A stretch of 64,000 nucleotides of DNA from Oryzias latipes (taxonomy: Eukaryota > Chordata > Actinopteri > Beloniformes > Adrianichthyidae). Every line of letters starts with the position of its first letter. Position 1 is the stretch's first letter. Where the stretch lies: assembly GCF_002234675.1 (NCBI RefSeq), contig NC_019864.2, forward strand, positions 14,835,582-14,899,581, read 5' to 3'. Under the pieces are notes generated by a model that made no database searches, was not told the DNA's origin, and saw only the letters and a program-made list of their open reading frames with translations. The translations under genes and the position numbers were made by a program. Positions 1 to 63,238 of this stretch are shown piece after piece.

Positions 1-2254
1 AAAAATGTGTCAAAACAGACATTAACACTAAGATCTTCCCTGTTAACAGAAAGACAAACTCACCTTGGATGAGTCAGTCCTTGAATTTAAAGACTTAATG
101 CCAAAATGGGCTTTAGATTTTTAAGTGGTTCACCAGTTGGAATGAAATATAACTTTATAGAAGGCTTCCTGCCCTGAGACTTTATACTGTTGAATTTCTT
201 TTTGTCCCTTTGCATGTGAGTTTTCAAAGACTTTATTTGTTTATGATTTTCTTTTTCTTTGGACGGCAGTTATAATTTTACAAATTGCATTTACTCAAAT
301 TGTTTACCACAACCATACGCTTTGTGAGTTGGTTTTGTGTGAAAACCTCTGGACCGCATCTGAAATTTTGAAGATTTTGGTTCAAAGGTATGAGATCCAC
401 TGGCCCGTTTAATACATTAACAGCAGTTGTGGTCTGTTGTTGTTTATAAATCAGCACAACTTTTGTTGTAAATGGGCTTGCAACATTTTGAACCCATGAC
501 GGTGACACGTAAAACTGTCAACAACATTTGCGTAACTATCTGAAACAGGCGCTAGCATGATAAAGCCGACATTCATGAAATATCTTTCAAGTTAACAATA
601 AACAAACAAACAAGAAGCTCATCATGGCAGACCAGACAAAGCTTAGATTTCATAACATTTATAGGTTTTTCCAATAATTTGTGAGGAGAGCTTCACCTAA
701 TTTGACTGTTATTAAACCAGCAGTATACAACTGGTCTAAACAGTTGCTCTGCTTGCATATTTTAACAAGAGATGTGACTGGAAAAGTGAGTTTAATTTAA
801 ATTTTCCATTGTTTTCTTGTCTATAAAATACCACTGGCCTCTGGTTGGGTTTGAAGATCTTGACATTTCAATACTTGTGTTTTGTCTGGCTCTCTTGCTG
901 TATTGGCACTCAGTAATGCTCAAAAACCCATGATGCAATATCTGGATTTGGTTTTGTGGCTGTCTCATAAAAGATTCTGACCAAGTGATGAGTGCCCGAG
1001 CTGTTGGTTAGCAAACTTCCTGCTCCAATGATCTTAGAAAACCCCAGTGCTTCACTGAATATTCTGTTAGAGGAAAGAAGAAGATCAAAAACCTGTATGA
1101 ACATTTTCACTTTTTTGTTACATTAAAACAGTTTTTTGGACATTAACTTTTTATGACTAGTAATCTATTTTAACTCTGTCAGTGTCTTTCAATCTTAACA
1201 CTAATGCTAATATGAGCACTGAGCCTCTTCCAGATGTGTCACATGGTTGTCGTGTGTCTCAGACTCCCAGGTAGTCTCTGACCCAAACGACAAGGTTGCC
1301 TCTGAGACAAACAGAGATGTACTTTTACTCATGATTGGGAGGAATGTTCTTGTTAAGATGAGAAAGAGGCTCTTTCACATGGCATCTAATCAGAGTCATG
1401 CTGCCTACACTTAATTTCGGAGGACACTCGTTGAACAGATGCCTTGTCCTCTCTCGAACAGCTGCAGAGAGTAGGAGTCCCACTCACCCCTGCAGAACCA
1501 TCACAGGACAATATTAGTTCACAGCCTGATTAATGCCGACATCTCCCAAAGCACCTTTAACAATGCCTTAGCTCTGTCTGCTGTGCTGCTTTCATTAGTT
1601 ATTCATGGCTTAAAGGAAAATGCATTGAAAACTTAAAAACTATGAGCTAAATACATAAAAGAATTACCTGAAACTAATGACAATCGGTCAGGACGTTAAC
1701 TAGCTGGTTCCTTAAGGAGGAATGAACAAATTACAGTTGTAACTATCTTTTAAGCAAAACATATTAATGAAATAATAAAGCCAATTGCCCTCTTAGAAGA
1801 CTAACAAACTAACAGACATATACTAGTTAAGTAATTAAGTTGGTATTAGAAGCCTAGCAACATTAAAAAAAAACACTTAAAAGGGATCAAAAGACCAGAA
1901 ATAGGACAGTGTAGGGAGAATTTAGGAGAGCAATTCATTTTGACTAAAATTCAAGTAAGTAGAAAGTAGTTAGAGTTAATGTAAACAGTTTAATATTGCT
2001 GAGCTGGTTGTTATTTGTTACAACTCGTTTGTGTCTTATTTTGTTATTTTACACCTGGTTTCACTAGTCCAAAATAAAAAGACTACTACTACTACTACTG
2101 TTAATAAATAGATTTGTCAGCTCATCAAAATGTAGTGATTATTTATTCTTCTCTCCCTCTGTATCTAAATGTCTTTAAGGGTACCTTTCAACTATAAAAT
2201 AACCAATGGTTAAAAAAAAAGTTTAAAAAATATCATTACAAAATGGTTTACAAT
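1..2254. other. AT-rich intergenic DNA, no gene seen
   Basis: I see no exon-like reading frame, RNA gene or recognisable transposon here. There is a short CTA trinucleotide run near 2085-2099. All open frames are short and AT-rich and lack splice context. Confidence 0.6.
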
Positions 2255-3163
2255 AGACATGTCCAAAGTCTGGCCCATGGGTTGAAATTTCCACCGCCCT
2301 GCAGGCTCCTGTCATAAGATCGTTAATATGCAAACACTGCACTTTCTAAAGACTGCGTCCAATTTCTTGATTGTGATGGGCTTAATTCCAAATGTAAATG
2401 TATTAATAGTGAATAAAGTTGCTGTGAAATGGCGACAACGCTTTAAAATCAGCACATCAAAAAACTAAATATTTTTCTTTCAAAATTGGAATTTATTGGA
2501 ATTTACTGTTGTAAATTGACTTGTGAACCTGTGGCAGCACTGTGGCGGGACCCTTCTATGACACTTTCTATCTGATTTTAAAATGTGGACTATAAACAAT
2601 TAAAAAGGAAAGTTGGGGACATTTCATTTGATTTTGAGAGACAGTTGAAGGAAAAAAGATTGGGGTTTAAATTTCTTGCGGCGAAAGCACGGACATATCT
2701 GACACCCCTCAGTACAGAACACGAGCAGGCCCAAATGAGGGGAACATATTTATTTGTTTCTCTGATCAAAACCATAATAGTTTGTACTTCTGAATAAGAT
2801 TACTACATTTAGAAGTTTACAGTGAGCATTTACCGGTAACAGTGAATAATATCTATCATTTCGTGTGAACCCTGATCTAATGTTGATAAAAGTTTATATT
2901 TTCCAGACAGACTTTAACTTCATTTTATTTCTGGTCTCAAATACAACATTTAAATAAATTTAGCTAAAAACGTTTTAGCTAAATTTTTTTCCTCTTCTGT
3001 GTAAAGATAAGAAAAGTATTCCAATGCAAAAAAAGTCATAAAATATTTCAATAGCATTAATGTTGTATGAAAGGGTTTAAAGAATATAAGCCTGTTGATT
3101 AACCCTCACACATTTTCACCTCACCAAATCTGGCCCTCTTTGAAAAAAATATGAACACCCTTG
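2255..3163. mobile_element. hAT-like DNA transposon relic
   Basis: The left end reads GTCCAAAGTCTGGCCC and the right end CTGGCCCTC...GAACACCCTTG. This resembles the common vertebrate hAT arrangement of a GGGGTGTCCAAA-type terminus followed by GGCCC-rich subterminal DNA, in inverted orientation at the two ends. The 0.9-kb interior has one 70-codon open frame (2585-2797, plus) that I cannot match with confidence to a transposase. Termini are degenerate and I found no clean 8-bp target duplication. It could be another DNA transposon family. Confidence 0.45.
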
Positions 3164-5605
3164 TCCTATTGTGTTTCTGTTAGTGTTTTCTTGTCTTTAT
3201 ACAAAAAGAAACAGAAAAAATTGGAGGAAACTTTACTGGCTGAAAATTCAGTTGTTACTGTTTTGATTTTCTTTGCTTTTAACTAATCATGTAATCAACT
3301 CATCGTCAGTTTTTGAAACTGTGTCGTGATTTAGTGTTCATTTTCAGTCTTGGTACATAAGCAGTATATTTGGTAAAGAGAGTATTGTTGCATAGAAATT
3401 GAATCAGTGGTTTTGATACAAAACTGATTAATCATTACAAATTTGTGTTTCTACTCTTTTGGCAGTGCGTTGCCTTAGATTTAGATTTGGCAGATCAATT
3501 CGTTTTTATTTCTGAATGTGTGCATGTGGGTGTGTAGCATGCTAAATTAAAGTAATTTTTTTTATTAAATTCCAGGGTTTCCTGGAGTGAAAACTGTAAA
3601 CAAAAAAATCTAATTTCCTATAGCTGCAAATTTTTCCCAAACACCTTCCTTATGGAACAAGTGATGGATGTAATAGAGAAAAGAAAGATGGTGCTGATCA
3701 CAGCCACGGTCAGATAAAAAGTAGAAACAATCAAAACAAGACTCAAGCGATTAACAACAGTGTTTTATAACTAAGTTCTGACTGCAGACTTCTACTGTGC
3801 AGCATTCTATTATCATAGATTTGTGGGTTTTTTTGGCAAAAAGCTGAGAACAGAGTGTCTTAAACATCATGACATCTGGCGTGTGGGTTGATCGAGCATT
3901 AAAGACACATGTTGGATAACACTACTGTCTACAGACGGATCTGCAAATGTGACTTGTGACACTTTTCTGACACTTCTACAGTCCTGCATTACAGATGAGC
4001 AATTTCCTACTAATCTTTTTTTTGACTCACTTATTAATTTAAAGGCTTTTAACCCTTCAGTCTTTTGTAGACTTCAGTTCCACTGGAGACTTGATTTACT
4101 CTGAGAATTAGTAGACTTGAGTTAATTTTTTTAATGGTTTCTTTGCTTCATGGTGAAGCTTTAGTGTTCAGTATTTCCTTTATGATCGTGCCAGTCTTTG
4201 CCAGCCGAGTTTGAGCTATTGCAGATTGACGGTAAACATCTCTGACATTAATGTGGATGCATAGATAAAATGAAATTCTAGGGAGGAGTTGTGTATAAAT
4301 TTGGAGGTATTCCACAACACTTTCATACTGTACTGCTTTTTCAAATTTCCTATATTTACCAACTAATTGTAAATTTTTGTGAAGCTTGATTTAAAAATAT
4401 GTTAAAAGTTCCTCTGAGAGACACAGTCATTGTGATGTTTTGTCTGGTTTGGACTGTTCTAAAGATAGAGGCTCACATGGCAAACACAAGACAGAGCAAA
4501 CCCAAGTTTGAAACCTGCAAACTGCATGGTTCCTAAAATTGGTGGCCAAGGAAATTAGAGGGAAGGGGTCTACGCAGAGGTGCTGGCCAGAGTCCGATCG
4601 GTCCGCGTGATTCCGACTGTAAGGTAGCTGATGGAGGGTCATGGACAAAGGAGTCACTCACAAGTGCTCTTTTGCTTTACGCCTCAAACTCACGCGCACT
4701 GCCCTTCGATTGCTTATTGAATTACATATAATCATTCAATTAAAGTCACATGGAGGAAAGGCATACATTGTCTAAACCAGGCCAATGGATGGTAGATAAC
4801 TGATGCTGTGTTGTTGCTCGTGGGAAGTTTCAAAACAAGATGTCTGAGATGTTAGCACCATGACAGGCGTCTCAGTCTTGAGTTTCAGCTTGGGAAAGCA
4901 CCACGATGGGTGTAGATCAAACACTTTGGATTTTTCCGTTGCTTCAATGCACAATCATGCTAATGTTCGCTGCACACAGGACATAATCCTCATAACACTG
5001 GAAGAGGAGTGTGCAGGGTGTTCTCTGAGATGATGTTGCTATTATTCCTATGTGAAAAGACAGGAATAATGAGACTAAACGTATACATGTACTGTATTGT
5101 AAAGAAGAATAGCTAAGGAGTAGTTTGTGAATTTTTTTGTATACTTTTAAACATGTAGAAAAATTCCTTTTTATTTTACATGTATCCAGTCCATTTGTAT
5201 TCAGATTTAGATGTATACCCACCTGTAACCTCATCTGCAAATCTGTCCGTCTGTGCTTCAGTCTGAACATCCAACTAAATAGTCACAGCAACATCTAAGA
5301 TCCAGCAAACACTCGCCAACAAGCTGCAAGACCTACTGGGATGAAAGCTTATTTGTTATAGAAGGTCATGCTTTTAAAAACGTGTCCATAGAAATCCTAG
5401 CAGGTAAAAACAACATGTATGTTACGACTAGGGCAGTGCAAGGTACTTTTAAACTACAATACATTACAGATTACTTGTGCTGTTAAAAGGTAATCCCATA
5501 TTACTGTCTCTATAATCTGCAGAACCAGATTTTGATATAATGTGACACATTTTAGGGCTGGTGATGTACTGTAATATGACCGGTAATAATACCTTATAGT
5601 TGTAA
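3164..5605. other. Intergenic DNA, no gene seen
   Basis: AT-rich sequence without recognisable exons. The longest frame (4944-5270, minus, 108 codons) has no domain-like composition and no splice-site context, so I treat it as chance. Confidence 0.55.
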
Positions 5606-5810
5606 CCCTTGTGCTGTCTTAGATGACCCCACCCTTACATTGACGTGTTCTCCCTACCATGACAAAGGCGATAAAGGTGGAGAGGATTTCATGTAATCCA
5701 TGGTCACCAGTGAGGTTCACAAATAATTGAAGAAAAAAGGTTCAGTGCACTGTCTAGTGGGTCTAGATGACCCAACTCCCAACGTTAAAGTGCCTAAGAT
5801 AGCACAAGGG
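5606..5810 (+). mobile_element. piggyBac-type MITE, copy 1
   Basis: A 205-bp element with termini CCCTTGTGCTGTCTTAG and CCTAAGATAGCACAAGGG, near-perfect inverted repeats. Internal subterminal motifs GATGACCC and GGGTCTAGATGACCC are shared with three other copies (25534-25737, 53754-53958, 59599-59793). Flanks are TGTAA and TCAA, decayed forms of the TTAA duplication intact at the other copies. CCC ends with TTAA duplication are the piggyBac signature. No coding capacity. This is probably the oldest of the four copies. Confidence 0.8.
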
Positions 5811-6293
5811 TCAAGTAAGTGGAAGCACCGACTCGGTAGACAACTGGAGGACCAACCCTTTAGCTTTAGTCAGTTTAGTTCATGGAAATTAAAATATAGC
5901 CTTGCTTACTCTGAAAAAAAGAGATGTGTGCTAAAGCAAGTGCTACAAAAATGCACATTTAAATTTTGCACCTAGAACAGACTTAACAGAAACGCTGAAA
6001 ATGAAAAGTAAAGTGTTTGAGTCTGTGAAGCATAATGGAAAATTTAACTCACTAAAATGACTAGATAAATTAGAAATTAGATTAAGTTTTTTAGAAAACT
6101 TTTTAGAAAATTAGAAGAAAAAAATGTGTTTTCCATTTTTTTGCAGATCCCTTATGGTCTTGCCACTAAGAACAACTTTTGAAAATTTGTACAATTTCTC
6201 TGTTATAATACACAACACACCAAACATGTAATGAGTATGATACTATTAAAAAATTAACAAGGTTTACAATTCTAACTTCTTACATTAAGTTTT
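5811..6293. other. Intergenic AT-rich spacer
   Basis: No feature beyond A/T runs lies between the MITE and the ATCC microsatellite. Confidence 0.55.
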
Positions 6294-7282: not shown

Positions 7283-7561
7283 ATGGTATGGCTTATACTT
7301 ATATAGCGCCTTTCTTCCTACAAGGACAAAGCGCTTTACAGTCACGGACCCATTCACCCAGTCACACACACATTCACTCACACATTCAGACACTGGTGGC
7401 AGCTCCGCTGCCAAACACAGGTGCCCGCCTACCACCAGAGGCAAGGTGGGGTTCAATGTCTTGCCCAAGGACACTTTGACTCATGGGCGTGGAAGGCGGG
7501 AATTGAACCTGCAATCTTACGATCAGGGGTCGACCACCCTACCGCTGCACCACGGCCGCCC
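7283..7561 (-). mobile_element. tRNA-derived SINE (V-SINE-like) inside piggyBac
   Basis: Reading the minus strand, a tRNA-like head begins GGGGCGGCCGTGGTGCAG and has a B box GGTTCAATTCC (7498-7508). A core word GTCCTTGGGCAAGAC follows (7458-7472, complement), then a tail with AAAGCGC...GGCGCTATATAAG. This head-core-tail layout is that of teleost core SINEs mobilised by LINE machinery. The 8-bp sequence CAATCTAA (plus strand) is repeated exactly at 7275-7282 and 7562-7569, the target duplication. The insertion lies at the end of the acidic N-terminal part of the piggyBac reading frame. Confidence 0.88.
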
Positions 7562-25312: not shown

Positions 25313-25531
25313 TGGTACCTACACCGGGTTCGTTGAAATACTGGGGAATTTTGTTGCCGCATTGTTTCCTTTGTATCTATAACAGAAATGTATTAATGTA
25401 AATACAAAAAGAGCACTTTTAAAAACGAGGCAGAAAAGGCAGGTGCTCAAGCACCCCTACTGCCCTAATATTGCACGTGCCTGTTCACCAGTTTATAAAT
25501 GATCATTTCTGTTGTTGGTAACCTTAAATTT
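25313..25531 (+). repeat. Unclassified repeat, uninterrupted copy (empty site)
   Basis: A roughly 220-bp unit running from ACCGGGTTCG to TGTTGGTAACCTT. A second copy at 59503-59905 is collinear and about 90% identical by eye, but carries a piggyBac MITE at the TTAA. Here that site is plain: GCACTTTTAAAAACGAGG (TTAA at 25419-25422). Family unknown. Confidence 0.8.
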
Positions 25532-25533
25532 AA

Positions 25534-25737
25534 CCCTTGTGCTATCTTAGATGACCCCACCCTGGCATTGATGTGTTCTCCCTACCATGACAAAGGTGGA
25601 TAAAGGTGGAAAGATTTCATTTAATCCATGGACACCAGTGAAGATCACAAATCATTGAAGAAAAAGGTTCAGCGCACTGTCTAGTGGGTCTAGATGACCC
25701 AACTCCCAATGTTAAAGTGCCTAGGATAGAACAAGGG
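25534..25737 (+). mobile_element. piggyBac-type MITE, copy 2
   Basis: A 204-bp element with intact TTAA on both sides (25530-25533 and 25738-25741) and termini CCCTTGTGCTATCTTAG and CCTAGGATAGAACAAGGG. It lies immediately beyond the 3' edge of the unclassified repeat at 25313-25531. Confidence 0.88.
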
Positions 25738-25741
25738 TTAA

Positions 25742-36600: not shown

Positions 36601-39600
36601 AACCTGACTGGAAACTGATAAAAAATAATAATCCTGAGTGAAAGTGAACAAAGAAAGTAAACATGTGTTCCTTCAACAGACTTCCATGTCGTTGTCGACA
36701 GAGCAGCCCCCCCCCTCCACGGCTCTCGCCCCTGCCTCCCAGGCGCAGGGATTCCCGGCTGTTTCCAAGCCTCCCCACAGCAGCGGCATCAATGTGAATG
36801 CGGCTCCATTCCAGTCGATGCAAACCGTAAGACTCATGGCGCTCACTTCCTGCTGCTCAGAAGAAGTCTGATCAGAAACGCAGAGGCTGACCTTTGAGGC
36901 TGCAGTTTTCTGCTCCAACACACATCTGTTGTCAAGGGGAACTTGACGGCTTGATTTGAAATTCATTTTATTTTTGCATCCACTTTAATTTATCTTTTTC
37001 TCACTAACGGAATCGCTGAAGTTAAAGTTAAGCCAAAGACTGAGATGTTAATCCTGTCATGATGAAATGATGTACACAACAGGAATGGTTGATTCTGTGG
37101 GTCTGAAGTGAAGCAGCTCTAAGGTTTCATCTTCATGGAGGCTTTTCCGTTCCTCAGGTGTTCAACCTCAATGCTCCGGTCCCACCAGCCAATGAGGCAG
37201 AAGCTCTGAACCACGCTAACCAGTACCAGAACAGTTACAACCAGGCCTTCAGCAGTCAGCCGCAGCATCCGGCAGAGCCGGCAGAGATGCCGTCAGAACA
37301 ACTTCAGTCCGGTGAGCAGACCTTCACAGACCAGAATATAAATGTCCCACCATTTAGATCAGCACTATTTGCTGTGCAGTGCTTTCTGGGTAATGAAGCT
37401 GGCTGCATTATTTCTGGAACTGGCAGTAACATTAATCAAACTTTCAATTGACTTGATTTCACTTTGACATTGAAGCTGAGCTGCTCATCCACTGCTTATC
37501 AGAAATGGGTTGTAGTGGGAGAAACGCACAAATGCAGGTCATCACTGATGTGTTTATGGTTCACTTGAACTGGGTTTGAACTCGGAATAGTTTGGGTCTA
37601 AATTATTGACAGCATTTCCCAGCAGTGACCAGTCCTGACTCCGGTTTCTGTGGGACTAAAGAAAATGTGCTGGTTTGAAGCTAAGGATCATCCTCAGCTC
37701 TTTACTGCTAATGTTTGTGTTTGTGTGGATACACAAAAAAGAGAGGCACTATTTTTAGTTACTTTTTATTGCCTTCTTTTTCTTTTTAATCACTCCAAAA
37801 TGCAAGAGTAACTTTACTCCCACTTTAGCAAATTCCTCACACTTCAATGAATGAACCAGATTTTGCTTACTTATAGTTTTGTTTTTATTTATTTACAGAT
37901 TTCTTTGTGGATTTTTCTTTTACCATTTTGTGTAAAATGTCCAAAAGAAAGCAATGGTTGCACAGAATACACTGCTGTTTGCATTAGTGTGGTGTAAACA
38001 TAACTGAATACATAAAAAGCCTGTTTTTTAATAACTTCTGTCAGTCACACACCAACACGTCTTTCAAGCTCTTAAAGAATCTACAACATCTTTAAATAGT
38101 TTTAATTTAAACATTTAGATTGGTAAATGTGACTACTGTAATGCTTATGCGATGCTGAGTTACTTGGTTATAACATCCCAACTTTTCAAGAGTTTGAATA
38201 ACCTTTAAAAATTAAAAAAATTTTATGTTTAGAATAACCACATTTGTAACTACCTGTTTTTAAAAACCACATTCTTTCTAGCGAAGGAGCTGCATTGTGT
38301 GTTCGTAGATTTAGAGAAGGCGTATGACAGGGTGCCGAGGGAGGAGCTGTGGTACTGTATGAGGTCGTCTGGAGTGGCAGAGAAGTATGTCAGAGTAGTT
38401 CAGGACATGTATGAGAGAAGTATGACGGTGGTGAGATGTGCTGTAGGTCAGACAGAGGAGTTCAAGGTGGAGGTGGGACTACACCAAGGATCAGCTTTAA
38501 GTCCTTTTTTGTTTGCTATGCTGATGGACAGGCTGACAGACGAGGTAAGACAGGAATCTCCCTGGACAATGATGTTTGCGGATGACATTGTAATTTGCAG
38601 TGAGAGTAGAGAGCAGGTGGAGGAACAGCTAGAGAGGTGGAGGTTTGCTCTGGAAAGAAGAGGTATGAAGGTCAGTCGTAGTAAGACAGAATGCATGTGT
38701 CTGAACGAGAGGGATCAAGGTAGAAGCGTTAGGTTACAGGGGGCTGAGGTGAAGAAGGTGCAGGAGTTTAAGTACTTGGGGTCAACAGTTCAGTGTGATG
38801 GGGAGTGTGGAAAAGAGGTGAAGAGGCGAGTGCAGGCAGGTTGGAGCGGTTGGAGGAAAGTGTCAGGAGTGTTGTGTGACAGAAGAGTGCCAGCAAGACT
38901 CAAAGGAAAGGTGTACAAGACAGTGGTGAGACCAGCTCTGCTCTATGGGTTAGAGACGGTAGCAGTGAGACAGAGACAAGAGGCTGAGATGGAGGTAGCG
39001 GAGATGAAGATGTTGAGGTTCTCCTTAGGAGTGACCAGGTTAGACAGGATAAGGAACGAGTACATCAGAGGGACGGCTCATGTTGCCTGTGTTAGCGACA
39101 AAGTCAGAGAAGCCAGACTGGGATGGTTTGGACATGTTCAGAGGAGGGATAGTGGATATATTGGTAGAAGGATGTTGGAGATGGAGCTGCCTGGCAGGAG
39201 GGCAAGAGGACGGCCAAAGAGGAGATACATGGATGTCTTAACAGAGGACATGAAGTTGGCTAACGTTAGGGTAGAAGATGTTCATGATAGAGTGAGGTGG
39301 AGGACGATGATTCCCTGTGGCGACCCCTGATGGGAAAAGCCGAAAGAGAAAGAAGATTCTTTCTAGCGAATGAATTAATCCACAAAGATACCTAAAAAAA
39401 TAACTGCAAGCCCTTTTTTTTTTTGTCTACCCAGAAAACTGTTTGGAGAATTGTATTTAATAATAAAAAAAAGTTTTCTTCGTTTTAATTTTGTGGGTTT
39501 ATGTTGCTAATTGTTTCCTTTTTTTGTTTTGTTCGGTGCTCATTTTTATTTAAGAACTGCAAAAGGAAATATCTTCAAACAGGTTGGGCTTTAAACTCAT

Positions 39601-53649: not shown

Positions 53650-54380
53650 ATGCCAGTTCATTGTGCCGGCATCAACTGCCGAAATAAAAGAAATTAGTCC
53701 ACGAAGGAGGAAGGCATAACATTTCACAGGTAAGTATATTTTTGTTCTTTTAACCCTTGTGCTATCTTAGATGACCCCACCCTTCCATTGACGTGTTCTC
53801 CCTACCATGACAAAGGTGGATAAAGGTGGAAAGATTTCTTGTAATCCATGGACACCAGTGAGGTTCACAAATAATTGAAAAAAAAAGGTTCAGAGTACTG
53901 TCTAGTGGGTCTAGATGACCCAACTCCCAATGTTAAAGTGCCTAGGATAGCACAAGTGTTAATGCTGCAGGGGCATCAGTAATAGTACACATGTTGACAT
54001 GCATGATGCTGCAGGGCTATTATCAACATGCTGCATGATGTACGTATAATTTGCTGTCGACATAAATGTAAACTTTATTTTGTTAAACCTATTTACAGTA
54101 TACTAGGACTAGGCTATTATAATAATATAGATTTATAAATTTCTGACTCAGTGACTGAACTTTTCTTGCAGGTTTCCAATGGATTCAGACTTAAGGAAAA
54201 AGTGGGCCTTAGCTATCAGAAGAGCTAACCCAGATGGATCACTGTGGTTACCAACTAGCAATACAGTCGGGTTGTTCAAAACATTTTGTGGAAAAAGATA
54301 TGTCTATGACAGGCCAGACTGTTTGCTTGAAACCCAGCACCATACAATCGTGTTACACAAATTGATCACTCACATGAATT
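53650..54380 (+). pseudogene. Broken THAP-domain gene, probably a transposase N-terminus
   Basis: Two exons encode a THAP zinc finger. Exon 1 (53650-53729) reads MPVHCAGINCRNKRN, then an in-frame TAG (53695-53697), then STKEEGITFHR, with donor AG|GTAAGT. Exon 2 starts at 54172 after [28 protein letters not shown]. Near 54262-54272 the THAP pattern moves to another frame, where CSKHFVEKD and [13 protein letters not shown] follow. Known THAP signatures are the C-x4-C pair, FPxDxxLRKKW, and the later C-x2-H of CSKH. One nonsense codon and one frameshift make it non-functional. Only the THAP domain is recognisable. A piggyBac MITE sits in its intron. It begins 35 bp inside the left inverted repeat, so a THAP-bearing DNA transposon (P-, Kolobok- or ISL2EU-like) is likelier than a cellular gene. 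Confidence 0.8.
53754..53958 (+). mobile_element. piggyBac-type MITE, copy 3, in the THAP intron
   Basis: The 205-bp element is flanked by TTAA (53750-53753, 53959-53962) with termini CCCTTGTGCTATCTTAG and CCTAGGATAGCACAAGTG. It inserted 24 bp after the THAP exon 1 donor. Confidence 0.88.
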
Positions 54381-54819: not shown

Positions 54820-54989
<170 letters not shown>

Positions 54990-55047
54990 AAAAAAACTTG
55001 CCCCTTTCACCCTTTCGTGGGTGGTTTCTCACTCAAGCTCGGGTCCT

Positions 55048-58000
55048 CTACCAGAGGCCTGGGAACTTGAGGGTTCTGCGCAGTATCTTAGCTGTTCCTA
55101 GCACTGCGCTTTTCTGGATTGAGATGTCTGAGATCTTTCCAGGTATCTGTTGTAGCCACTCCTCCAGCTTGGGGGTTACTGCCCCGAGTGCTCCAATTAC
55201 CACAGGCACCACTGTCACCTTCATTTTCCAGGCTTTCTCCAGTTCTTCTCTGAGTCCCTGGTATTTCTCCAGTTTCTCATGTTCCTTCTTCCTGATGTTC
55301 CCATCGCTTGGCACTGCCACATCCACCACAACGGCTTTCCTCTGTTCTTTATCCACCACTACAATGTCTGGTTGGTTCGCCATTACCATCCTATCAGTCT
55401 GGATCTGGAAGTCCCACAGGATTTTTGCCCTTTCATTCTCTACCACCTTCGGGGGTGTTTCCCATTTTGACCTTGGGGTTTCCAGTCCATATTCTGCACA
55501 CATGTTCCTGTATATTATTCCAGCCACTTGATTGTGGCGCTCCATGTATGCTTTACCTGCCAGCATCTTACACCCTGCAGTTATGTGCTGGATTGTTTCA
55601 GGTGCCTCTTTGCACAGCCTACACCTTGGGTCTTGTCTGGTGTGGTAGATCTGAGCCTCTATTGCTCTGGTGCTCAGGGCTTGTTCCTGAGCTGCCAGGA
55701 TGAGTGCCTCAGTGCTGTCCTGTAGGCCAGCCCTCTCTAGCCATTGGTAGGACTTCTTGATATCAGCCACTTCAGTTATGGTCCGGTGGTACATCCCATG
55801 CAGGGGTTTGTCCTCCCATGAGGATCTGTCCTCCAGCACTGTATCCTCTGCTCTCCATTGCCTGAGACATTCACTGAGCACACTGTCAGTTGGGGCCTTG
55901 AGCTTGATGTACTCATGCATCTTGGATGTTTCATCCTGGATAGTGGCTTCTACGCTCACTAGTCCTCGGCCTCCTTCCTTACGGCTAGCATACAGTCTCA
56001 GGGTGCTGGATTTGGGGTGGAACCCTCCATGCATGGTGAGGAGCTTTCGTGTCTTAACATCCGTGGTCTGTACCTCTTCCTTTGGCCATCTTATTATTCC
56101 TGCAGGGTATCTGATAACTGGCAGTGCGTAGCTGTTTATTGCCCGGGTCTTATTTTTGCCATTGAGCTGGCTTCTCAGGACTTGCCTTACCCGTTGGAGG
56201 TATTTAGCTGTTGCAGCTTTCCTTGTTGCCTGCTCCAGGTTGCCATTTGCCTGTGGAATTCCGAGGTACTTGTAACTGTCCTCGATGTCTGCTATTGTTC
56301 CTTCTGGGAGTGAGACCCCTCCTGTGTGGACTACCTTGCCTCTCTTTGTCACCATCCGGCTGCATTTCTCGAGCCCGAATGACATCCCAATGTCAGTACT
56401 GTAGATCCTGGTGGTGTGGATCAGGGAGTCAATGTCACGCTCGCTCTTAGCATATAGCTTGATGTCATCCATGTAGAGGAGGTGACTGATGTTGGCCCCA
56501 TTTCTGAATCGGTATCCATAGCCAGTCTTGTTGATTATTTGGCTGAGGGGGTTCAGACCTATGCAGAACAGCAGTGGGGACAGAGCATCACCTTGGTATA
56601 TCCCACATTTGATGGACACTTGGACACTCCCATTGGCTTCAAGGGTGGTTTTCCACAGCTTCATTGAGTTTCCTATGAAGGCTCTTAGAGTCCTGTTTAT
56701 GTTGTACAGCTCCAAGCATTCAGTGATCCACGTGTGTGGCATTGAGTCATAGGCTTTCTTGTAATCAATCCAGGCTGTGCACAGGTTGGTGTGTCGTGAC
56801 TTGCAGTCTTGAGCGACTGTTCTGTCAACCAGGAGTTGGTGTTTCGCTCCCCTGGAGTCTCTACCAATGCCTTTCTGTGTGTTACTCATGAATTGATCCA
56901 TGTGCCTATTTATCTTGGTTGCAATGATGCCTGACATGAGCTTCCATGTTGTGGAGAGACAGGTTATTGGCCGGTAGTTGGATGGGACTGCACCCTTTGA
57001 GGGATCCTTCTGGATCAGGATCGTTCGGCCTTCTGTTAGCCATTCGGGATGAGTCCCATCTCTTAGCAGCTGGTTCATTTGTGCTGCCAGGCGCTCGTGG
57101 AGTGCTGTGAGCTTCTTTAGCCAGTAGGCATGTATCATGTCAGGGCCCGGTGCTGTCCAGTTCTTCATACCTGAGACTCTTTCTTGGATGTCTGCCACTG
57201 TGATGGTTACTGGATTCTGTTCAGGGAGGTTGCTATGTTCTTCTCTCAGAGAGACCAGCCACTGGGCATTGCTGTTATGTGCTGTCTCTTTCTCCCATAT
57301 ACTTTTCCAGTACTGTTCAGTTTCTAGCCTTGGTGGGTCTGCTCGGCTGTTTTGACCCTGCCACTGAGCGTACACTTTCGCAGGTTGAGTTGCGAACAGC
57401 CTGTTTATCCGTCTGGCTTCATTGTCTCTTGTGTACCTCTTTAGGCGGCTGCTCAAGGCTAGGAGCCTTTGTTTGGCAGTTTCCAGTGCTTCAGGTATGG
57501 GCATCTGGCTGTATCTCTTAGGTACTTGCTTTCTCATTGTATCTCTTTGAGCCTCTGTCAGCTTACTCACATCCTTCCGAGTTGCCTTGATTTTGGCCTC
57601 TAACCGTTGCTTCCATGGTGGGTATTGTTTTCTCCCATGGTTACTCTTATAGCCAAGCATCTCAAGGATCACTGCTGCTGAAGTGTAAACCAGTTCATTG
57701 GTTTCTGTGATGGTTGTGGTAGGAATTGCCCTCAATGCTTCATTCACAGTTTCCAGTAGACTTTCAGGCGGTACATCACTTAACCGTTGTAGCTGGTGTC
57801 GAGGTTGCCAAGTGTTCATTCTAGACATGATCTTGTCTTTCAGGTCAGTTGCTGCCTCGCTCAGCGTAACTGTGGTTGTTGGGGCTGTGTACCCAATCTC
57901 AGGGTGGGAGTGTAGTATAGCCTGCTCTCTGACCTGTTGTTCTGGCTCTCTCGGGGTATTGCCATTGTATTGTATTGCTTCAATCTCAAGTTGTGATAGG

Positions 58001-58293
58001 AGTTGCCGCTTGTGGATGTTCGAGCATTGGGCTACCAGTTGTTTGGCAGTTAGCCTTGATTGTGAGTTTCGAAGCATCCATTCATTCCACATTCTCTGCA
58101 TGTAACCACGCTGGTTGGGATTACTTGAGTAGTAGCATTCTAACAGAACCTTGTTCTCGCACCTAGTCCATTTCCGTCTTGTTCCAGTAGCCCACTTTCC
58201 ATCAGAGTGCTCTGGTCCCCCAGCACCTGACGCAGACCTTGTTTGGCCGGGCGACGTCTGAGCCGGCATGACATGTGGTTCATTGTCTCTCAT
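55048..58293 (-). CDS. LINE ORF: reverse transcriptase with restriction-like endonuclease, 1081 aa
   Basis: Single polyprotein for target-primed retrotransposition. I chose the ATG at 58293 ([12 protein letters not shown]). The frame is open for 13 more codons upstream but has no ATG there. Regions: an N-terminal Myb-like DNA-binding part ([19 protein letters not shown]); a reverse transcriptase core with [38 protein letters not shown] and catalytic YMDD at residues 607-610; a zinc knuckle [18 protein letters not shown] (about 891-908, C-x2-C-x8-H-x4-C); and a C-terminal restriction-like endonuclease with PD at 975-976, a later Asp at 991 (VVVDVAVP) and KxxKYxxL. No stop or frameshift was seen across 3.2 kb, so the copy is young and may be active. 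It shows Dong/R4/Rex6-like architecture. The exact family is not determined. Confidence 0.88.
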
Positions 58294-58448
58294 GTTTGTG
58301 AGGTAGGCCGTAGCGTAAAGGGTCTTGCCCAAGGACCCTCACTGGGTGATGTTAATTGCTCGCTATTGTTATGGTAATTGCCACATTTCCATTGTTATGG
58401 TAATTGCCCCCATTTACCATTGCCATTATATTGTTCATTCCGCCCCTG

Positions 58449-58502
58449 GGAATCGAACCGAGGTTTTCCTGCATGACAGTCCTGCACCTTACCAACTGAG
58501 CT
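58449..58502 (-). promoter_or_regulatory. tRNA-like head with Pol III A and B boxes at the LINE 5' end
   Basis: On the minus strand TAGCTCAGTTGG (A box consensus, 58492-58503) is followed 32 bases later by GGTTCGATTCC (B box, 58449-58459). The spacing and the segment GGACTGTCATGCAGG between them resemble a tRNA body, but the acceptor 5' half is replaced by TA repeats and the stems are imperfect. It is a tRNA-derived promoter-like sequence, not a functional tRNA gene. Whether it drives the LINE is inference. Confidence 0.75.
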
Positions 58503-58800
<298 letters not shown>

Positions 58801-58885
58801 ATAAACATAAATATATATTAATAATATAAAAGCTACTTAGATGCCACCAAAGGCTATAGAAGGCATTGTCATGTGGGTCCCGTCT

Positions 58886-59502: not shown

Positions 59503-59905
59503 GGTTCGATAAAACACCGGGGAATTTTGTTGCCGCATTGTTTCTTTTGTATCTATAACAGAACTGTATTAATGTTAATACAAAAAGAGCACTTTTAACC
59601 CTTTTGCTATCCTAGGCACTTTAACATTGAGAGTTGGGTCATCGAGACCCACTAGACAGTGCTCTGATCCTTTTTTCTTCAATGACTTGTGATCTTCACT
59701 GGTGTCCATGGATTACAGGAAATCTTTCCACCTTAATCATGGTGGGGAGAACACGTCAATGTAAGGGTGGGGTCATCTAAGATAACACAAGGGTTAAAAA
59801 CGAGACAAAAAAAGGCAGGTGCTCAAGCACCCCTACTGCCCTAATAGTGCACGTGCCTGTTCACCAGTTTATAAATGATCATTTCTGTTGTTGGTAACCT
59901 TTCAT
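59503..59905 (+). repeat. Unclassified repeat, copy interrupted by a piggyBac MITE
   Basis: Collinear with 25313-25531: CACCGGGGAATTTTGTTGCC, GCATTGTTTC, AATACAAAAAGAGCACTTTT, then the MITE, then AAAACGAGAC and GGCAGGTGCTCAAGCACCCC. Removing the MITE plus one TTAA restores the uninterrupted order. Confidence 0.85.
59599..59793 (-). mobile_element. piggyBac-type MITE, copy 4 (opposite orientation)
   Basis: TTAA at 59595-59598 and 59794-59797 flank termini CCCTTTTGCTATCCTAG and TAAGATAACACAAGGG. It is reversed relative to the other three copies and about 10 bp shorter, with a small internal deletion. Confidence 0.9.

Positions 59906-60915: not shown

Positions 60916-63238
<2,323 letters not shown>

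Follow-up and report, generated by a model that had tools for sequence, protein, structure and literature searches.

The window (the whole 64,000-nucleotide stretch of Oryzias latipes DNA analysed here) contains a copy of the LINE Rex6 that, judged by its sequence, resembles a single Pol III transcription unit over its whole length, which is the new point of this work. It has an A box and a B box at tRNA spacing at its 5' end, a predicted RNA start just before the A box, a body free of runs of four T (T4) and a run of more than four T at its 3' end. A promoter and a terminator at opposite ends of a cleared sequence are most simply read as a 3.5-kb Pol III unit, and we consider it probable that Rex6 adopted a SINE-type head and is transcribed by Pol III from end to end. 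The copy spans 58503-54989 on the minus strand, and copies from the same genome align over positions 1 to 3515 of this stretch. A preliminary description of the window had noted an intact R4/Dong-type LINE with a SINE-like, tRNA-derived head; the identity with Rex6, the location in (TA)n and the Pol III features that run across the whole LINE (absence of internal T4, 3' T-run) go beyond it. The features are as follows, with the basis of each assignment in brackets.

54989-58503, minus strand: Rex6 LINE copy, without the first ~9 nt of the family (same-genome copies, Rex6 primers)
58504-58815, no strand: (TA)n-rich 5' flank, target (direct reading)
54848-54988, no strand: (TA)n 3' flank, target (direct reading)
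58492-58503, minus strand: A box TAGCTCAGTTGG (A+B pattern; variable in older subfamilies)
58449-58459, minus strand: B box GGTTCGATTCC (identical in 26 of 26 aligned rows)
58322-58336, minus strand: SINE-core word GTCCTTGGGCAAGAC in the 5' UTR (15-mer shared with the SINE, there at 7458-7472)
55048-58293, minus strand: ORF of 1081 aa encoding a reverse transcriptase and a restriction-like endonuclease (Pfam RVT_1, E 3.6e-27)
55570-55623, minus strand: CCHC motif of the ORF, C906, C909, H918 and C923 (all invariant with the distant relative L001)
55321-55371, minus strand: endonuclease PD...D residues P990, D991 and D1006 (all invariant with L001)
55534-55555, minus strand: primer Rex6-Medf1, exact match (primer letters from PMC3728117)
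55042-55063, plus strand: primer Rex6-Medr2, exact match (primer letters from PMC3728117)
54989-54996, minus strand: T8, candidate Pol III terminator at the 3' end (the only run of at least four T on the sense strand)
7283-7561, minus strand: SINE, a separate element with the same core word at 7458-7472 (limits as in the preliminary description)

The window LINE was identified as Rex6 because both published primers match it without mismatches and in convergent orientation (55555-55534 and 55042-55063). It agrees with Rex6 as published, an R4-family teleost LINE, in these primers and in its single ORF with a reverse transcriptase and a restriction-like endonuclease; Rex6 is placed in the R4 family in the accessible text of PMC7599744 and PMC3728117. 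The ORF is open from the ATG at 58293 to 55048, encodes 1081 aa and is followed by a short 3' UTR and the T8 run. Its endonuclease motif is of the PD...D type, and the best relatives of its product among solved structures are R2 proteins. The genome searched comprises 734,051,031 bp in 25 contigs. Outside it, no relatives of the element were found in the viral contigs and phages searched, and plasmids gave a single weak match (22.5% identity). L001, a 3992-bp contig filed under Streptomyces narbonensis, codes for at least 1131 aa of an R4-like LINE protein with 34% identity to Rex6; the contig is probably a eukaryotic contamination. With this protein as the query, no second R4-like family was seen among the 41 places scored, of which four 5' ends were read (L069-L072). 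In one of these copies, L069 (1-381), the LINE passes near element position 68 into an antisense sequence that has its own box-like words, and template switching with a SINE may have left this trace. Elsewhere in the window are another LINE reverse transcriptase, in a frame of 365 aa (38233-39330, Pfam RVT_1), a dispersed repeat of ~215 bp with copies 86-93% alike (5600-5814, 25529-25741, 53749-53962 and 59595-59811) and an imperfect palindrome of 343 bp that is 74% self-complementary (61178-61520).

The A box (58503-58492) and the B box (58459-58449) lie 32 nt apart on the minus strand, at the tRNA spacing previously claimed. A permissive A+B pattern matched only once on the two strands of the window, at 58503 (minus strand), against 3 matches in 200 Markov-1 shuffles, that is, 0.015 expected per window. 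The 15-mer said to be shared with a SINE core was recovered as well (GTCTTGCCCAAGGAC, at 58322-58336 and at 7458-7472). A related core word that excludes the form of the LINE itself, GTCCTTGGGCAAGACNCTTNACCC, has 981 exact matches across the genome, its reversed control none; from these counts we take the 981 places to be SINEs. Comparison of the head with the Rfam tRNA family and with ARAGORN gave no match, nor was a cloverleaf fold seen, so the head may be tRNA-derived as judged from the two boxes and their spacing. Box A, box B and core follow one another in the same order as in the SINE of the window, which fits the proposed capture of a SINE head and core as the LINE 5' UTR, with the direction of transfer unproven. 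No HDV-like ribozyme was found at the 5' end among Rfam matches to E values of 5-10, a search that a divergent ribozyme could escape.

Other copies carry the head at the same joint. Among the best 40 of 1,574 candidate places retrieved with a 231-bp head query, the 39 other than the window were analysed. GCTGGG immediately precedes the A-box region in 27 of these 39 (counted by eye), and 19 of the 27 have GCGGCTGGG or CCGGCTGGG as their leader, GCGGCTGGG being the form of most young copies; the remaining 12 of the 39 start later or are altered. The window copy is without the ~9-nt leader GCGGCTGGG, and its A box adjoins (TA)n. The B box is identical in all 26 aligned rows (25 of the 39 copies and the window). 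The A box equals TAGCTCAGTTGG in the window and 12 further rows and is altered in the other 13 of the 26; older subfamilies have an altered A box.

A query for the ORF start, without the head, yielded the best 40 of 609 candidates and one partial second match; 15 were the window or places already analysed, and 20 of the remaining 25 were analysed. The head is complete in four of these 20 copies (L050, L051, L052 and L064), has a small deletion in one (L062) and is inverted in one (L057). Three copies start inside the head and keep the B box (L056, L059 and L063), and the other 11 begin beyond the B box. The 450-bp flanks of these 11 headless copies and of L057 are mutually unlike and thus show no second 5' UTR in common. 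A 28-mer from the head of an older subfamily has 62 exact matches in the genome and none for its reversed control. We read 12 of the 62, all new places of our choosing, and all 12 continue into the LINE (partly judged by eye); several have small deletions and three an altered or missing A-box end. A free SINE with the Rex6 head was not found among these 12. The head is thus a property of the family, as the leader and A-box region of 27 out of 39 copies and the 12 further heads indicate, and aligning the 5' ends of other copies, as had been suggested, showed it retained at the same joint and gave the headless copies (11 out of 20) no common alternative. Two rearranged copies were seen along the way: L059 has the head and 5' UTR region twice, at about 198-415 and from 480 onward, and in L055 a unit of ~32 bp is tandemly expanded inside the ORF (about 3372-3627).

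Twin priming produces 5' inversions, in which an inverted piece of the element adjoins the head. Counting the leader as -8 to 0, inversion joints lie at -8 in L017 and L023, at -7 in L057 and at -6 in L031 and L052, with no (TA)n in between; further-in joints occur in L029 (-3), L035 and L042. The five joints at the leader place the 5' end of the RNA about 9 nt before the A box, a start point read from genomic insertions. In genes of the tRNA type, the RNA starts at a like distance before the A box. Joints such as those of L017, L023, L031, L052 and L057, which lie at the RNA 5' end, can help to locate transcription starts in genome sequence.

This fixed 5' end bears on the strongest alternative, in which Pol II transcribes Rex6 from flanking (TA)n acting as TATA boxes, and the head is a relic serving RNA structure, packaging or translation, or gives rise to short Pol III RNAs only. 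(TA)n does lie just upstream of many Rex6 copies, LINE promoters are described as Pol II promoters and their replacement as frequent (PMC2881922, in the part available). However, the 5' end keeps a fixed distance from the boxes even at inversion joints without (TA)n, and Pol II transcription leaves both the absence of T4 and the 3' T-run unexplained. We regard it as rather unlikely.

According to the accessible text of PMC8466645, T4 and TVTTT are the shortest moderately effective Pol III terminators. None of 21 full-length copies (20 fetched and the window) has an internal run of at least four T, although 11 of the 20 have broken ORFs. Runs of at least three T number 1-4 per full-length copy, against 13-15 expected, and TVTTT is absent from 19 of the 21 and occurs once in each of the other two, where 2.4 are expected. 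T4 does not occur in 97 aligned sense segments from 59 loci (171,105 bp), against 116 expected from base composition, segment counts that are not independent because Rex6 copies are related. In the same 171,105 bp of aligned sense strand, C4 was counted 482 times against 459 expected and G4 356 times against 510. A4 is depleted too, with 578 against 1,441 expected in the sense-strand element bodies of L010-L068, and Pol III termination does not explain this depletion of A-runs. In the window, the T4-free stretch of the element measures 3,831 nt, and the next longest on either strand 1,036 nt. Judged on this single copy, the absence of T4 was unconvincing (P = 0.09 in one element alone; 0.77 when the element's own codons were shuffled, since TTT codons are already absent), and the tests on runs of three T, on codon context and on many copies decided the matter.

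The 3' end differs from the body. A 29-mer from the tail of young copies has 44 exact matches in the genome, with TTTT next in 40 of them and absent in four. Among 26 listed tails, at least six T follow immediately in 19, up to 19 T, and a TA stretch comes next in 21 (by eye). The U-tails of Pol III transcripts are shorter than tail runs of up to 19 T.

The avoidance of T-runs extends to synonymous positions. The window ORF has one run of at least three T, against 12.8 expected for independent bases and 8.4-8.5 under a protein-preserving null in which T or C was drawn regardless of neighbours; at most one of 2,000 simulations was as low. At synonymous T/C third positions, T was used in 135 out of 313 cases away from a T and in 28 out of 135 next to one (P = 6e-6), and all nine Phe codons are TTC. 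Besides TTT and T4, TT is also avoided in the Rex6 ORF. Three control LINEs gave a different picture, with 19 runs of at least three T against 13.9 expected in an R2 of the same genome (L073, a 569-aa frame with 51% identity to the R2 query), 24 against 20.8 in a second LINE family of the same genome that is 21% identical to Rex6 (L074) and 27 against 21.1 in the distant relative L001. A neighbouring T had no effect in R2 or L001 and a weak one in L074 (0.46 versus 0.36, P = 0.02).

These counts also weigh on a second alternative, namely that T-runs are avoided for another reason, for example because U-rich stretches act as RNA decay or splicing signals, because the reverse transcriptase misreads them or because homopolymers are avoided in general, the boxes being incidental. 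Such a cause would accommodate the depletion of A-runs (A4, 578 versus 1,441) and the avoidance of TT beyond T4. However, C-runs are at expectation (482 versus 459), the three control LINEs have normal numbers of T-runs and the single long T-run of the element sits at its 3' end; we consider this account improbable, more so than transcription by Pol II. That the boxes arose by chance, or came with a separate SINE insertion in the window copy, might be entertained given the abundance of SINE-type cores in the genome (981 exact words), but it has a negligible probability and was rejected on the same joint in dozens of copies, the 0.015 A+B matches expected per window and the 12 out of 12 additional heads attached to the LINE.

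Several observations count against transcription by Pol III as well: the depletion of A-runs and, to some extent, of G4, the avoidance of TT, the long tails and the four of 44 tails without TTTT. To these are added the altered A box of older subfamilies, a head with neither a tRNA match nor a tRNA fold, and the weak context effect in L074. Moreover, Pol III is described as weakly processive, and LINEs as Pol II elements (PMC10886601, in the text available).

We propose that transcription by Pol III would operate in Rex6 as follows. A SINE-type head with A and B boxes and a SINE-type core would make up the 5' UTR, having replaced the ribozyme end of the R4/Dong type, perhaps via template switching. 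TFIIIC and TFIIIB would assemble at the boxes, and Pol III would initiate about 9 nt before the A box, pass through 3.5 kb, including the ORF, without meeting a terminator and stop in the 3' T-run. The resulting RNA would presumably be uncapped and translated in a cap-independent manner. It would then be copied into (TA)n microsatellites, where the TA flank may aid TFIIIB upstream of the new copy. The boxes and their occurrence throughout the family, the constant 5' end, the missing T4, the codon-level avoidance of T beside T, the terminal T-run and the contrast with the three control LINEs are observed in the sequence; we infer the use of Pol III, a full-length Pol III RNA, cap-free translation and template switching as the way in which the head was captured.

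The 5' UTR holds many upstream ATGs: there are 7-10 in the 23 of 26 rows that could be counted (up to 12 nt of flank included), and the window 5' UTR has seven against 3.5 in shuffles (P = 0.047). This abundance fits initiation without scanning. The Pol I-transcribed elements R1 and R2 may use an IRES, as suggested in the accessible part of PMC2881922.

Rex6 shares features with several known systems. R4 and Dong belong to the same broad clade according to the literature, and Dong inserts in TAA repeats (PMC3774820, as far as its text is available), as Rex6 does in TA repeats. The same source assigns R4 and Dong an HDV-like ribozyme at the 5' end, whereas Rex6 has boxes in its place and no such ribozyme by Rfam. 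Fish tRNA-type SINEs resemble Rex6 in box A, box B, the shared core and a terminator T-run at or near the end; SINEs measure 100-700 bp (accessible text of PMC10886601), whereas Rex6 is 3.5 kb long and codes for 1081 aa. TRIMp3 elements (Cassandra, Helenus and Ajax) are likewise retrotransposons with a small-RNA-gene promoter, plausibly SINE-derived, but they are of the LTR type, non-autonomous and no longer than about 1.3 kb (PMC10886601, in part), unlike the LINE Rex6. It is argued in that paper that autonomous LTR elements exceed the weak processivity of Pol III and that the autonomous partners of TRIMp3 must use Pol II. The accessible portions of PMC6274825, PMC7599744 and PMC3728117 make no mention of a Pol III-type head or terminator on Rex6. 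A search of literature titles and abstract openings found neither a Pol III-driven autonomous LINE nor the Rex6 head; it did not extend to the original Rex6 paper, to Repbase or to the bulk of subscription journals, and priority is therefore uncertain.

We lean towards the view, with more reserve than for Pol III transcription itself, that Rex6 would be an autonomous animal LINE organized as a 3.5-kb protein-coding Pol III gene, with terminators excluded even at synonymous positions and translation independent of a cap, and that a captured SINE promoter may have taken the place of the R4/Dong 5' ribozyme in teleost Rex6 elements in general. The transcription of LINEs is poorly understood, as the available text of PMC3774820 puts it. 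A LINE with a Pol III-type promoter, a 3' T-run and a T4-free body would cross the boundary between LINEs and SINEs. If true, Rex6 would provide a natural long Pol III RNA that is translated, although Pol III is mostly associated with short RNAs, and its promoter would have been gained from a class of elements that ordinarily parasitize LINEs. Rex6 is in wide use in teleost cytogenetics, and this reading of it is testable in laboratory fish.
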